A stretch of 38,986 bases of DNA. Origin: Brasilonema sp. UFV-L1 (GTDB taxonomy: Bacteria; Cyanobacteriota; Cyanobacteriia; Cyanobacteriales; Nostocaceae). The translations under genes and the position numbers were made by a program. The notes under the pieces are model-generated. The model saw only the letters and a program-made list of their open reading frames with translations. It was not told the DNA's origin and ran no database searches. The stretch covers positions 1-38,986 of the forward strand of contig NZ_QMEA01000056.1 of the NCBI RefSeq assembly GCF_012912105.1. The letters are read 5' to 3'. This document shows positions 6,537-33,482 of the stretch, piece after piece. Position 1 is the first letter of the stretch, and each line of letters opens with the position of its first letter.

Positions 6537-6671
6537 GGCGTTGCTGAATCAAGATATGAATTTTAAAATTCCCAATATTGTAATGAAAGTGCATGCACTT
6601 TCACTACAGGGTTTTGCAGGAAATTGACAAACGTGCTACAACCATAATTCATTACTAAATTCAGCAACGCC
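6537..6671. mobile_element. 135-bp MITE, GGCGTTGCTGAA family (copy 1)
   Basis: Begins GGCGTTGCTGAAT and ends ATTCAGCAACGCC, with TIR similarity reaching about 24 bp (a shared ATGAATT block after a variable middle). The interior holds a perfect 20-bp palindrome at 6584-6603 (core GTGCATGCAC). No target-site duplication is evident, suggesting an old copy. It occupies the spacer upstream of the 5-oxoprolinase gene. A second copy with the same ends is at 24477-24632. The rest of 6482-7047 holds no gene I can support. Confidence 0.75.
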
Positions 6672-21491: not shown

Positions 21492-23186
21492 TTAGTTAAT
21501 CTTAAACACGGATTCCACTGTTGATTTCAGCGAATCCCGTGCATCCTTAAGTGTCTGTGCTATGGGCTGCTTATTCTGCAAAAAGATTCGCGCACAATTG
21601 CGTCCTGGCATTCCTGAAATCGAACCGCCGGGATGAGTCCCCGCACCTGTCAAATACAAACCCTCAATAGGTGTTTTGTAGTTCGCAATCTCTGGTAAGG
21701 GACGGAAAAATACCATCTGATCCAAAGTCATATCAACATGGTAGTAATTTCCTTTATACGCACCCAATCTTTCTCCTAGTTCTGCTGGACTTTCTACACG
21801 ACGGGCAATGATTGCGTTTTTTACATTTGGCGCGTAGTCTGCGAGTTTATCAATCACTTTGTCTGCGACTTTGTGCTTTAATTCATCCGTCCACCCCGTA
21901 CCATTTAAACCTGTGCCTTCTGCACCTGCAATTTGATACGGAGCGAAAAACTCAATCCATGCGGTATGCTTACCAGGTGGTGCCATTGATGGATCTAACA
22001 TTGTTGGCACAACCACATACATTGAGGGGTCAGAATCTGGAATTTCTCCTAATGTACATTTACTATGAGCTTGTTCTACATGAGCAACAGAATCTGCAAT
22101 CAAAACAGATCCAATGAGGTATTCGTCTTTGTGTTCGTGATGTTCAAAGCGCAGTGGTTCGTTTAAAGCCAAGTCTATCTTGAGGATAGTTTCGTTATTG
22201 TTGACAATGCGACGTTCTAATCTTTCCCGTAAATTTGGATCCGCAGCATCTACATCGCTGGTATCCATTAATTGCAGAAACAAACGCTTGGCATCAATGT
22301 TTGAAATGACCCCATGTTTAGCACGGTATTCTATACCATTTGCCACCTGTACACCAACAGCATGACCGTTATCAACCAAAACTTTCTTAACCTGTTGGTC
22401 TGTTAAGATGACACCACCTTTACTTGTCACCAAATTCACCAAAGCTTGTACCAATGCACCAGTACCACCACGTGGTCTAGCCATCCCTGGATTATGGCGC
22501 ATTGCCATCATTATTGCACCAATCGCAAGTGTTTTTTGGGAAGGAGGCGCACCGAGTTCTGAAGCAAGTCTAGACAGAGGTGCTTTCAGAAATTCTGAAT
22601 CAAACCACTCGTTAAGAATATCCTCAGCACTGGTTAACATATTACGAACAAAGTCCAGTGTCTTGGAAGGTGAACCAATAACTGAAAATAAATCTTTCAG
22701 CTTTGCAATGTCGTAGTTACCAAGAATATCTAAAACTGACTTGGGAGGTGCATTAAACATAGGAATCATCGCACCAATTGCTCGTTGCCAGTAGTTTGTA
22801 AATTCTAGATATTTTTTGGCATCGCGTTCATTGTAACGGGCAATTCCTGCACTCGTTTTTTCTACTGATTTATGAGCTAAGAAATACTTTCCATCTGGAT
22901 GAGGACAGAAAACAACTGGATCACACTCCAGATATTGTAAACCGTATTTTTCCAGTTCTAATTCTTGCACAACTGGTCCTAGATGAATAAACTCGTGGTC
23001 AATTGCACACAAGTTAAACCTAAATCCAGCAGCTTCCTGTGGTAAACATTCCTCTGTTGTTGCTGCACCACCAGGAACAGAACGTTTTTCTAATACCAGA
23101 ACGCTATAGCCAGCGTTCAGTAAATAAGCAGCACAAACTAGTCCGTTGTGTCCTGCTCCGATAATGACAACATCATACTCTTGCAT
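21492..23186 (-). CDS. crtO: Beta-carotene ketolase, CrtO type
   Basis: 564 aa of the phytoene-desaturase-like FAD oxidoreductases. The N-terminal VVIIGAGHNGLVCAAYLL (GAGHNG at 10-15), EKRSVPGGAATTE and CAIDHEFIHLGPV, the central LNEWFDSEFLKAPL and GAPPSQK, and the C-terminal GLYLTGAGTHPGGSISGMPG agree along the whole length with Synechocystis CrtO (slr0088) as I remember it. CrtO adds a 4-keto group to beta-carotene, giving echinenone and, in some strains, canthaxanthin, at the membranes. Echinenone is the usual cofactor of orange carotenoid protein. Bacterial-type crtI homologues are more distant. It lies 229 bp downstream of the ruined MFS gene on the same strand, with no carotenoid gene beside it. 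Confidence 0.9.
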   Translation of the reverse strand: MQEYDVVIIGAGHNGLVCAAYLLNAGYSVLVLEKRSVPGGAATTEECLPQEAAGFRFNLCAIDHEFIHLGPVVQELELEKYGLQYLECDPVVFCPHPDGKYFLAHKSVEKTSAGIARYNERDAKKYLEFTNYWQRAIGAMIPMFNAPPKSVLDILGNYDIAKLKDLFSVIGSPSKTLDFVRNMLTSAEDILNEWFDSEFLKAPLSRLASELGAPPSQKTLAIGAIMMAMRHNPGMARPRGGTGALVQALVNLVTSKGGVILTDQQVKKVLVDNGHAVGVQVANGIEYRAKHGVISNIDAKRLFLQLMDTSDVDAADPNLRERLERRIVNNNETILKIDLALNEPLRFEHHEHKDEYLIGSVLIADSVAHVEQAHSKCTLGEIPDSDPSMYVVVPTMLDPSMAPPGKHTAWIEFFAPYQIAGAEGTGLNGTGWTDELKHKVADKVIDKLADYAPNVKNAIIARRVESPAELGERLGAYKGNYYHVDMTLDQMVFFRPLPEIANYKTPIEGLYLTGAGTHPGGSISGMPGRNCARIFLQNKQPIAQTLKDARDSLKSTVESVFKIN

Positions 23187-23502
23187 AAATGAAAAATCGT
23201 GCTTATATCTTCCATTACGAGATTACAAATTATTACATCTCATTCCATCATTCGGCAGTTATAGAAATGCTAGTTTAGAATAAAGAATAGGCTGAAAAAT
23301 TTGCTAAAAAAAGACTGGCTAATCGCTGATTGTAAGAAAAGGAAGACAATTGGCAATTAGCACTGATCTAATGCACTCTAGACTTTTACAATTAGTCGTT
23401 ATTCATAGAGTTTTCTCAAGAGTGGCTTGAAACCAAAGACTGTGCTTTATGTAAAGTTTTGGTTTCTGGTACGAATATCCAGAAAATTATAGTTGCTACA
23501 GT

Positions 23503-23542
23503 GGCGATACGCCTTTAGGCGTCTGCGCTTTGCGCAATCGCC
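23503..23542. repeat. 40-bp cloverleaf repeat inside the MFS pseudogene
   Basis: GGCGAT and ATCGCC close the unit; inside are two mini-hairpins, ACGCC-TTTA-GGCGT and TGCGC-TTT-GCGCA, separated by a single C. The result is a perfect three-way junction. Removing about 39 bp restores the MFS frame. Confidence 0.7.
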
Positions 23543-24346
23543 GCTAAACCAAGAAATGCAACATTATAGCCAGCCTTTTGCACCACAAACCCAGCTAGCA
23601 GATGACTCAGAAAAGCACCTATACCAACAGCAGTATTTAGCGCCCCTTGCGTGACATTAAACCGTCCTGTACCTTTAGTTAAATCAGCAACCATTAGTAC
23701 TGAAAGTACGCCGAAAATCCCGCCAGCAACTCCATCTAAAATCTGTACTGAAACCAAAAAATAAGGATTATCGCTGAGAGTGTAAAGTACACCACGAATT
23801 GGCAAGACAGCGAAGCCAAACAAAAAGATAGGTTTTCTGGCAGTATGGGCTAAACGCCCAGCCAAATTAGCAGAAGGAATCATCACCAACTGGGCAACAA
23901 TAATGCAAGCCGACATATAAAGTGTAGCCCCCGTTGCTTTGCCTTCTGAGAGTGTTTGACCGACAAGTGGTAACATTGCTGCATTGGCAAAGTGAAAGAG
24001 AACCACTGCAAGACAAAACCAAAGTATACGGTGGTCACTGAACAACTGCGTAAAGCCAGAGAGATGATGCGGATGTTTTCCTAGAATGTCCTCATCCTCA
24101 TCTTTTGCACCACGCGCTAATTCGTGGTCAATCTCTTTTTCTCGAATCCTTAGAACCGCGATCGCACTAGCTACCGCCATAGCTGCAACTAGAAAAAAGA
24201 TGCCTTTGCTGGTAATAAAAGAACCCACTAAACCAGCTAAAATCGCTGCAAGTACGTTACCTGCATGATTGAACGACTCATTGCGACCAATTCGACGGTC
24301 TAAATGATTATGCCCTACGAGTCCTAGGCTAATAGCGGCGATGTCT

Positions 24347-24373
24347 GGCGACAAGCCGCTCCGCGTCTACGCC
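24347..24373. repeat. 27-bp GGCG...CGCC repeat inside the MFS pseudogene
   Basis: Begins GGCGACAAGCCGC and ends CGTCTACGCC. It has the wording of repeats that are very common in Nostoc-type genomes. Its length is a multiple of three and it puts TAG (24367-24369) into the MFS frame. Confidence 0.65.
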
Positions 24374-24476
24374 CCTGGAAACACCGCTGCTGCTAAACCA
24401 ATAGAAATTTGACCAGCAATGACGACTGGAAAAATCGGTAACACGGCTATTGCAATGCAACCAATAGAGACAATTG

Positions 24477-24632
24477 GGCGTTGCTGAATTTGAGTATGAA
24501 ATACAGTTTTGTCATGCTGAACGAAGCGAAGCGTAGTGAAGCATCTCGTTTAATTTTCAACGCTTTCCGGAGATTCTTCGCTCCACTTCGTTACGCTCAG
24601 AATGACAATTCATACCTTTGTTCAGCAACGCC
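24477..24632. mobile_element. 156-bp MITE, GGCGTTGCTGAA family (copy 2), with 8-bp target duplication
   Basis: TIRs of 24 bp at 24477-24500 and 24609-24632 share GGCGTTGCTGAA and TATGAA. GACAATTG is duplicated on both sides (24469-24476 and 24633-24640), proving insertion. The interior from 24509 to 24608 is a second palindrome type that begins TTGTCATGCTGAACGAAGCG and ends CAGAATGACAA. No coding capacity. The open frame crossing it on the plus strand (24481-24672) is an artefact of the repeat. Confidence 0.92.
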
Positions 24633-25102
24633 GACAATTGCAGCAGCCAGGACAATCAACATTCGTTTCTGACGCAATCGGTCAACTAACGCACCTGTTG
24701 GTGTTTGGGCAATAACTGTTGCAATGGTTGAAGCAGACATTGCAATCCCAATGTTAGCTGGATTCCAATTTTCTGAAGCTTTCAAATAGATAGCTAGATA
24801 CGGTCCAACTCCATCACGTACATCAGCTAGAAAAAGGTTTAAATAATCAAGTGCCCACAAACTTTTCTGGCTTGGTTTTCTACTTTTTTCGTACATTTTT
24901 CGTACATAAATATAATGAAAGTTAAACCAATGCCATTTCATCATTTAAATTTCAATGCGTCTATATCTCTAAGAGTACAATTTTTGGGCAGTTAGTTTAT
25001 ATACGGCAGTGAAGTGGGTACAGTCCATTCAAACGGATTTACTTTTCAAAAACCCAGTTTTTGCATGTATTATGCATTTTATCACTCAAAATTATAAGTA
25101 AA

Positions 25103-32568: not shown

Positions 32569-32640
32569 TTTAACAGTTATCAGTTATCACTGTGTACTGT
32601 GTACTGTGTACTGTGTACTGTGTACTGTGTACTGTTTTAA
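32569..32640 (+). repeat. STRR heptamer array, copy 1 (6.6 x ACTGTGT)
   Basis: A leader TTTAACAGTTATCAGTTATC is followed by perfect tandem ACTGTGT (32589-32634, six full units plus ACTG) and TTTTAA. Heptanucleotide tandem repeats of this kind are known from heterocystous cyanobacteria. It lies about 75 bp upstream of the 102-aa gene. Confidence 0.9.
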
Positions 32641-33424: not shown

Positions 33425-33482
33425 TTTAACAGTTATCAGTTATCAGTGTGTACTGTGTACTGTGTACTGTGTACTGTTTTAA
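33425..33482 (+). repeat. STRR heptamer array, copy 2
   Basis: The same leader and trailer as at 32569-32640, with one AGTGTGT variant and three ACTGTGT units plus ACTG (33445-33476). It is exactly 14 bp, two heptamers, shorter than copy 1. It ends 39 bp before the acylase start. Confidence 0.9.

Follow-up and report, generated by a model that had tools for sequence, protein, structure and literature searches.

Why should one MFS transporter gene carry three small insertions of different sequence within 1.5 kb? The gene lies on the minus strand of our window, by which we mean the whole stretch of 38,986 nucleotides that was analysed (contig C289 of the Brasilonema genome G000, an assembly of 8.3 Mb in 337 contigs), where it runs from about 24896 to 23416 and comprises 419 codons plus the three inserts. 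It is broken into two ORF pieces, both of which match the Pfam profile MFS_1, and its orthologous frames are open. An earlier note, made from the sequence alone, had held that removing three inserts rebuilds a single ancestral frame, and had suggested either a dead gene turned safe landing site or a hot spot. We compared seven genomes of the genus, from G000, the window strain, to G006, and find that the rebuilt frame and the death of the gene stand, while the account of how the inserts came to gather there has to be revised.

Among the named genomes, the best three orthologues are Brasilonema records with 92, 85 and 85% identity. The full-length gene is present only in orthologues, encoding 428 aa in G002, 427 aa in G004 and 430 aa in G005; in these intact sister copies all three insertion sites are empty in the alignment, and homology runs across the rebuilt joins, as the earlier note had proposed to look for. 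The G003 gene has neither of two of the inserts, a MITE and a 27-bp repeat, and carries a cloverleaf repeat of 29 bp net at the same C-terminal site as the third insert of the window, in the opposite orientation, so that a frameshift leaves an ORF of 404 aa. In G001, just the 3' third of the gene remains, with the same cloverleaf repeat as in G003, and in G006 the gene has been lost from between conserved neighbours. The gene is accordingly broken or gone in G000, G001, G003 and G006 and intact in G002, G004 and G005. The neighbourhood of the gene in G001 looks mosaic, and the roughly 1 kb that replaces the 5' two thirds there (G001:C9, 19353-20342 of the joined L202 and L203) resembles, by eye, a nucleotidyltransferase gene. 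Relative to its relatives, the window gene also has an 11-bp tandem duplication at its start codon (24883-24910).

Once the insert columns are removed, the window frame comprises 419 codons with zero stops and zero frameshifts or gaps, where nonsense changes would be expected to make up about 3.4% of random changes. Against G003, the nearest relative, dS is 0.294, dN 0.044 and omega 0.15, and against the remaining relatives omega is 0.19-0.22. A parsimony count restricted to sites at which three outgroups agree assigns 34 synonymous and 14 nonsynonymous changes to the window branch, and 17 and 15 to the branch of G003. Purifying selection thus acted on the window gene over the greater part of its branch. 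Because the frame without the inserts is untouched, omega is low and the changes on the branch are mostly synonymous, the gene probably died late on its branch, in a recent loss rather than as an old ruin, even though the window copy now contains a frameshift and two stops.

The frameshift is due to a MITE of 156 bp (24477-24632) at about codon 88 of 419, whose ends, GGCGTTGCTGAA...TTCAGCAACGCC, we tentatively class as IS1-type. It is flanked by a perfect 8-bp target duplication, GACAATTG, at 24469-24476 and 24633-24640, and its site is empty in G002, G003, G004 and G005, which bears out this part of the earlier description; compared with the empty relatives, the element and its duplication add 164 bp. 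The element is shorter than 300 bp, has inverted ends and contains no ORF. It looks young, because an identical 156-bp copy lies at G000:C237 with another duplication, CTAAATTG. A second MITE in the window, of 135 bp (6537-6671), has the same ends without a matching 8-bp duplication. A survey of the sampled sequence that allowed one mismatch per end gave 17 short elements so terminated, 15 of them flanked by a perfect 8-bp duplication; most were fetched as matches of the window MITE, and two share one duplication sequence. Two of three longer elements with the same ends (813-881 bp) also have an 8-bp duplication. One longer relative from the same genome, 881 bp at L107, has an 8-bp duplication and only short ORFs; its matches to InsA (E 6e-4) and to DDE_Tnp_IS1 (E 2e-4) fall short of the curated Pfam cut-offs. 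By description, the window MITE resembles Nezha and other IS-derived cyanobacterial MITEs, which are likewise short, with inverted ends and no ORF, although its own ends match an IS1-like element. The Nezha MITE makes an 8-bp duplication.

Both remaining inserts are in frame, and each adds a stop, as the earlier note had recognized. The 27-bp repeat, on the minus strand, was first described at 24347-24373; as a net insert against the empty relatives it occupies 24343-24369, at about codon 120 of 419, and brings a TAG. On the gene strand it reads GCG-(27 bp)-ATCGC, and it thus splits a HIP1 octamer, GCGATCGC, which is present intact at both small-insert sites in G002, G004 and G005; at the 27-bp site G003 has GCAATCGC. 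The cloverleaf repeat, first described as 40 bp at 23503-23542, is a real insert, recognizable from its empty sites and its double-hairpin fold, which brings a TAA, yet it does not add 40 bp: the element spans 38 bp (23504-23541) including the split HIP1, only 30 bp of this is net, and the remainder belongs to the pre-existing HIP1 site. Nor does the view of three independent families hold, for the two small repeats differ in sequence but each splits a HIP1 octamer, and for this reason we infer that they form one mechanistic class; of the three inserts, only the MITE is clearly unrelated. What the 27-bp repeat shares is the target, the fold being not clearly shared with the hairpin families: with its HIP1 halves it reaches a two-hairpin minimum on both strands, with z scores against shuffled sequences of 0.38 and -0.48.

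Both repeats have relatives elsewhere. The window 38-mer occurs four times in its own genome at up to 3 mismatches, the window copy included, and since loops in the cloverleaf family vary in length, we counted the family with a gapped pattern. The pattern for the 27-bp family, which misses the window copy because that copy is one base longer, has four matches in three of the seven genomes, so that the signs of dispersal and recent mobility are weak for this family taken alone. Among plasmids, the 40-bp repeat matches two Scytonema NIES-4073 records, and the 27-bp repeat, searched with 8 extra flanking bases, matches Nostoc, Aulosira, Calothrix and other cyanobacterial plasmids among the listed 30 of 128 records, many matches in other bacteria being weak. 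An Rfam scan of the window at gathering thresholds gave no match. G006 has another member of the 40-bp family (87%) at L309:4633-4669, about 0.1 kb past the match of the next gene. Elsewhere in the window, a heptamer tandem repeat (unit ACTGTGT) forms two short arrays at 32569-32640 and 33425-33482.

HIP1 recurs as the target at other loci. Homologous sites for 20 other loci of the cloverleaf family were sought among the sampled loci, with an underlying search that covered 13 of the 20. Five loci have empty homologous sites, each an exact GCGATCGC in at least one genome; the other empty homologues at these five are one or two bases off (GCGGTCAC, GCGATAGC, GCAATCGC) or not cleanly aligned. Thirteen loci have no second homologous site among the sampled loci, and the homologue of L126 is filled. 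In place of an empty HIP1, the G005 orthologue of L148 (L257) has a different 32-nt sequence, in which HIP1 occurs twice, and at L153 a different 31-nt sequence is present in one homologue; L140 and L153 are probably paralogous or located in an IS. Exact HIP1 is also found at empty homologous sites of inserts in xseA and a hydroxyacid dehydrogenase gene, where the near-HIP1 sites are GTGATCGC, GCGTTCCC (twice), GTAATAGC, GCAATTGC and ACGATTGC. The net inserts appear consistent with a cut of the form GCG-X-ATCGC, between nucleotides 3 and 4 and with no extra duplication; for the hairpin families, a 2-bp AT duplication at HIP1 fits equally well. According to Elhai 2015 (PMC4390886), the element SDR5 inserts between nucleotides 3 and 4 of HIP1.

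Pattern counts find 63 copies of the window type, which we call family A, and 108 copies of family C (GCGATAGCTTCGCTGCTGCGC-NNN-GCGCAGATCGC), each across seven genomes; family B has the form GCGATAAGCCGGAGGCTTGACGC-NNN-GCGTATCGC. Genomes differ in the presence and absence of repeats at these sites, and the distribution is dispersed and multi-copy. In the predicted fold of all three families, the HIP1 halves form a stem that closes two hairpins; compared with shuffled sequences, the z score is -4.2 for A, -2.2 for B and about -1.0 (-0.96) for C, so that the fold is strong for A alone. Stop-free frames number four of six in family A, five of six in family C and three of six in family B. The hairpin loops of A and C copies include the reverse-complement pairs GGA/TCC, TTT/AAA and CTT/AAG, as if single hairpins flip; we do not claim hairpin inversion, as none is flipped at five sites taken as shared. 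In G003:C57, an SbcC-like gene (L140, named by eye) bears repeats of both family A and family C close to its end.

Do three inserts in one gene require that the gene was a refuge or a hot spot? Small repeats, defined as 16-mers present four or more times in 1.24 Mb of the 8.3-Mb genome of the window strain, have a density of 1.23 per kb outside ORFs of at least 100 aa and 0.058 per kb inside them; the three inserts themselves escape this census, being members of low-copy families. Under a Poisson model, the probability of three or more hits in 1.26 kb is about 0.2 for unconstrained DNA and about 6e-5 for a constrained gene, and three hits are therefore ordinary for dead DNA. Of the suggestion that a dead gene became a safe landing site, the death of the gene is supported; the decay that it implies is not seen, since outside the inserts the frame bears no lesion and selection acted on it for most of the branch. 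The MITE and the 27-bp repeat are the two recent killers, and at most one of them, whichever came later, can postdate the death of the gene. That the gene or its region is a special insertion hot spot, as the earlier note alternatively suggested, we consider improbable. The crowding of three inserts into 1.5 kb, the use of the same C-terminal HIP1 in three genomes and the further 40-bp-family copy in G006 would suit it, but three hits match the repeat density of unconstrained DNA, and the FAD gene next to it (21492-23186) gives alignments of 1692-1695 bases with five relatives and is thus free of such inserts. Moreover, the two small inserts are explained by HIP1, which occurs about 0.5 times per kb, so that the target is the octamer rather than the MFS gene. 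Still harder to accept is that the inserts are tolerated or regulatory, with read-through or a functional split gene: the low omega, and the 404-aa ORF of G003 in which the tail alone is altered, would accord with it, yet the window copy has its frameshift and two stops, and two of its inserts fall as early as about codons 88 and 120.

The C-terminal HIP1 raises a question of its own, for it is filled in three of seven genus members and in both orientations. Of 17 outside orthologues tried, 16 could be aligned; 14 of these have the exact octamer, all of them empty, and it is more conserved there than the HIP1 at the 27-bp site. We favour, without great assurance, the view that the 40-bp family entered this HIP1 twice, independently and in opposite orientations, at a target that is palindromic and conserved. 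The loop variants at the site differ (TTTA as opposed to TTT), with G003 and G001 alike in both variant and orientation, and flipping in place seems uncommon: at four of five pairs or groups taken as shared filled sites the orientation agrees, the MFS site being the exception (L126/L172, L131/L145, L141/L153, L157/L163 and a multi-copy element of G002, in all of which orientation agrees, were omitted as paralogous, partial or in repeated elements). Against two insertions, striking the same HIP1 twice among thousands is unlikely a priori, and loop length varies also at the shared site L101/L156.

The competing account, a single older insertion followed by an inversion, seems to us possible though rather doubtful. 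On this account, the repeat entered the common ancestor of the window, G003 and G001 lineages, the gene has since been under partial constraint and able to accumulate inserts, and one copy of the repeat subsequently inverted where it lay, between the 5-bp inverted ends GCGAT/ATCGC. All three lineages have the same HIP1 filled, four genomes have a broken or lost gene as against three with an intact one, and in G003 relaxation is seen in the 28 codons that follow the cloverleaf repeat (10-11 of 28 changed compared with intact genes, p 0.001-0.02). However, for the window the same tail shows no significant relaxation (p 0.11-0.19), omega between the two genes is 0.15, and their cloverleaf elements differ, after flipping, by one base, when about seven differences would be expected at dS 0.29 had they been neutral since the split. 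The tree evidence on the flipped copy is mixed. The rooted MFS tree, which includes neither G006 nor G001, joins the window with G003 (support 88/87), and the trees of the FAD gene and of the L138 locus, the latter with G001, place G003 near G000 and G006, as an older lesion would have it; against this, two other gene trees with midpoint roots set G000 and G006 apart from all others. Across gene trees G000 joins G006, and G003 joins G001 at two loci. Overall, we prefer two insertions to one insertion with an inversion.

If these repeats broke the transporter gene, how do they fare in other genes? From the sampled sequence of the seven genomes we collected copies that, collapsed by flank, make up 122 records; seven (five A29, one B27 and one C27, the numerals giving net length) lie within 250 bp of a sequence end and were set aside. 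We replaced each repeat by HIP1 computationally and asked whether the site falls in an ORF of 150 aa or more. Copies with a net length of 27 or 30 bp preserve the frame (67 copies: 13 A30, 7 B27 and 47 C27), and 32 of these lie in such ORFs, 30 of which remain open with the repeat in place, where it would add 9-10 residues. Among 29-bp copies (A29), by comparison, five of 47 lie in such ORFs, and one of these five stays open. ORFs that span the filled site are found for 31 of 67 frame-preserving copies as against four of 48 A29 and B28 copies (Fisher p about 1e-5); one further B27 copy and three A29 copies are spanned only with the repeat present, and the one B28 copy is not spanned. Of 604 cases of intact HIP1, 469 fall within ORFs of at least 150 aa. 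The loci were not sampled at random, many having been fetched for the copies they carry, and a single multi-copy element of G002 carries some of the A29 copies, so that these ORF counts are neither random nor fully independent. Only two frame-preserving copies break their ORF, namely the window copy, the sole exception among A30, and one C27 copy.

The genes that house the repeats in frame include ordinary enzymes. Twenty carrier proteins from the 35 spanning records were scanned, and in 10 a Pfam match extends across the insert. In purH, an in-frame 30-bp HIP1 repeat adds 10 residues in G001 (L192:17801-19381) and G003 (L188:9913-11484); the site is empty in G000, G002, G004 and G005 and near-HIP1 in G006, and the G001 protein aligns over its full length to a solved PurH (3zzm) except for the 10 added residues. 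In xseA, a 27-bp insert is present in G001 and G003, with GCGATCGC in G002 and G004 and a near-HIP1 in G005 and G006; a query with the xseA stretch (L202:4300-5100) matches six other genomes strongly, and in G000 the repeat itself was the sole match among the matches listed (best E 5e-10). The hydroxyacid dehydrogenase gene has a 27-bp insert in G000 that is absent from five other genomes with a full match, the site being GCGATCGC in G006 and near-HIP1 in the other four; the G003 match is partial. TrkA-N genes at L330 (G000:C147) and L358 (G004; scanned) have the same family C peptide, as if long retained. All these in-frame copies lie in predicted genes, and the added peptides would be translated with them.

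Similar elements are known elsewhere. SDR elements of Nostoc punctiforme are reportedly mobile in recent time, in what is said to be the finding of Elhai et al. 2008, and their size is said to range over 21-27 nt. SDR5, as described in PMC4390886, resembles our repeats in being a tiny dispersed repeat with precise HIP1 insertion, although the 40-bp family, at 29-30 bp net, lies above that size range. In-frame insertion of cyanobacterial HIP1 repeats was not described in any paper that our literature search turned up, the principal source (Elhai 2008) lying outside its reach. The repeats fit the already published SDR/HIP1 elements, and it is their in-frame residence in many genes that deserves follow-up. 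In this respect they appear to work like Rickettsia palindromic elements, small palindromic repeats that, according to PMC3733652, lie in frame in genes for likely functional proteins. We do not claim membership in that group: the likeness is by description rather than sequence, the host is another, and the repeats here are 27-30 bp net with the fixed octamer target HIP1. The Rickettsia elements are longer than 27-30 bp. The double-hairpin elements of fungal mitochondria, mobile and likewise consisting of two adjacent hairpins, are not known to target HIP1.

Taken together, the MFS gene was very probably under selection until recently and was then inactivated by a putatively IS1-type MITE and two HIP1-targeted micro-elements of a class that usually preserves the frame of genes. 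In the order of events that we infer, the gene would have been intact and selected until recently in the window lineage; the 156-bp MITE, non-autonomous and presumably mobilized by an IS1-type transposase, would have landed with an 8-bp duplication and thrown the gene out of frame; and two micro-elements would have entered HIP1 octamers precisely, without extra duplication, with probable loss of transporter function. The micro-elements very probably belong to a HIP1-targeted class, three families of which share a predicted fold and whose net 27 or 30 bp usually keeps the host gene in frame and would add 9-10 residues; in the MFS gene, both entered in a stop-carrying frame. More broadly, we lean, with some reserve, towards the view that HIP1 is the docking site of modular, mobile double-hairpin micro-elements which, through their 27/30-bp length and largely stop-free frames, may spread 9-10-residue peptides in frame through ordinary enzymes (PurH, XseA, dehydrogenases, kinases), a palindromic target allowing both orientations; the triple-hit transporter would then be a case in which this process visibly failed. 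For very small mobile repeats, the empty sites are resolved to the base; they show HIP1 targeting by several unlike sequences, and give a handle on what moves elements too small to be transposons. They also suggest that conserved enzymes naturally acquire peptide insertions from HIP1 repeats, which would be a testable route of protein change.
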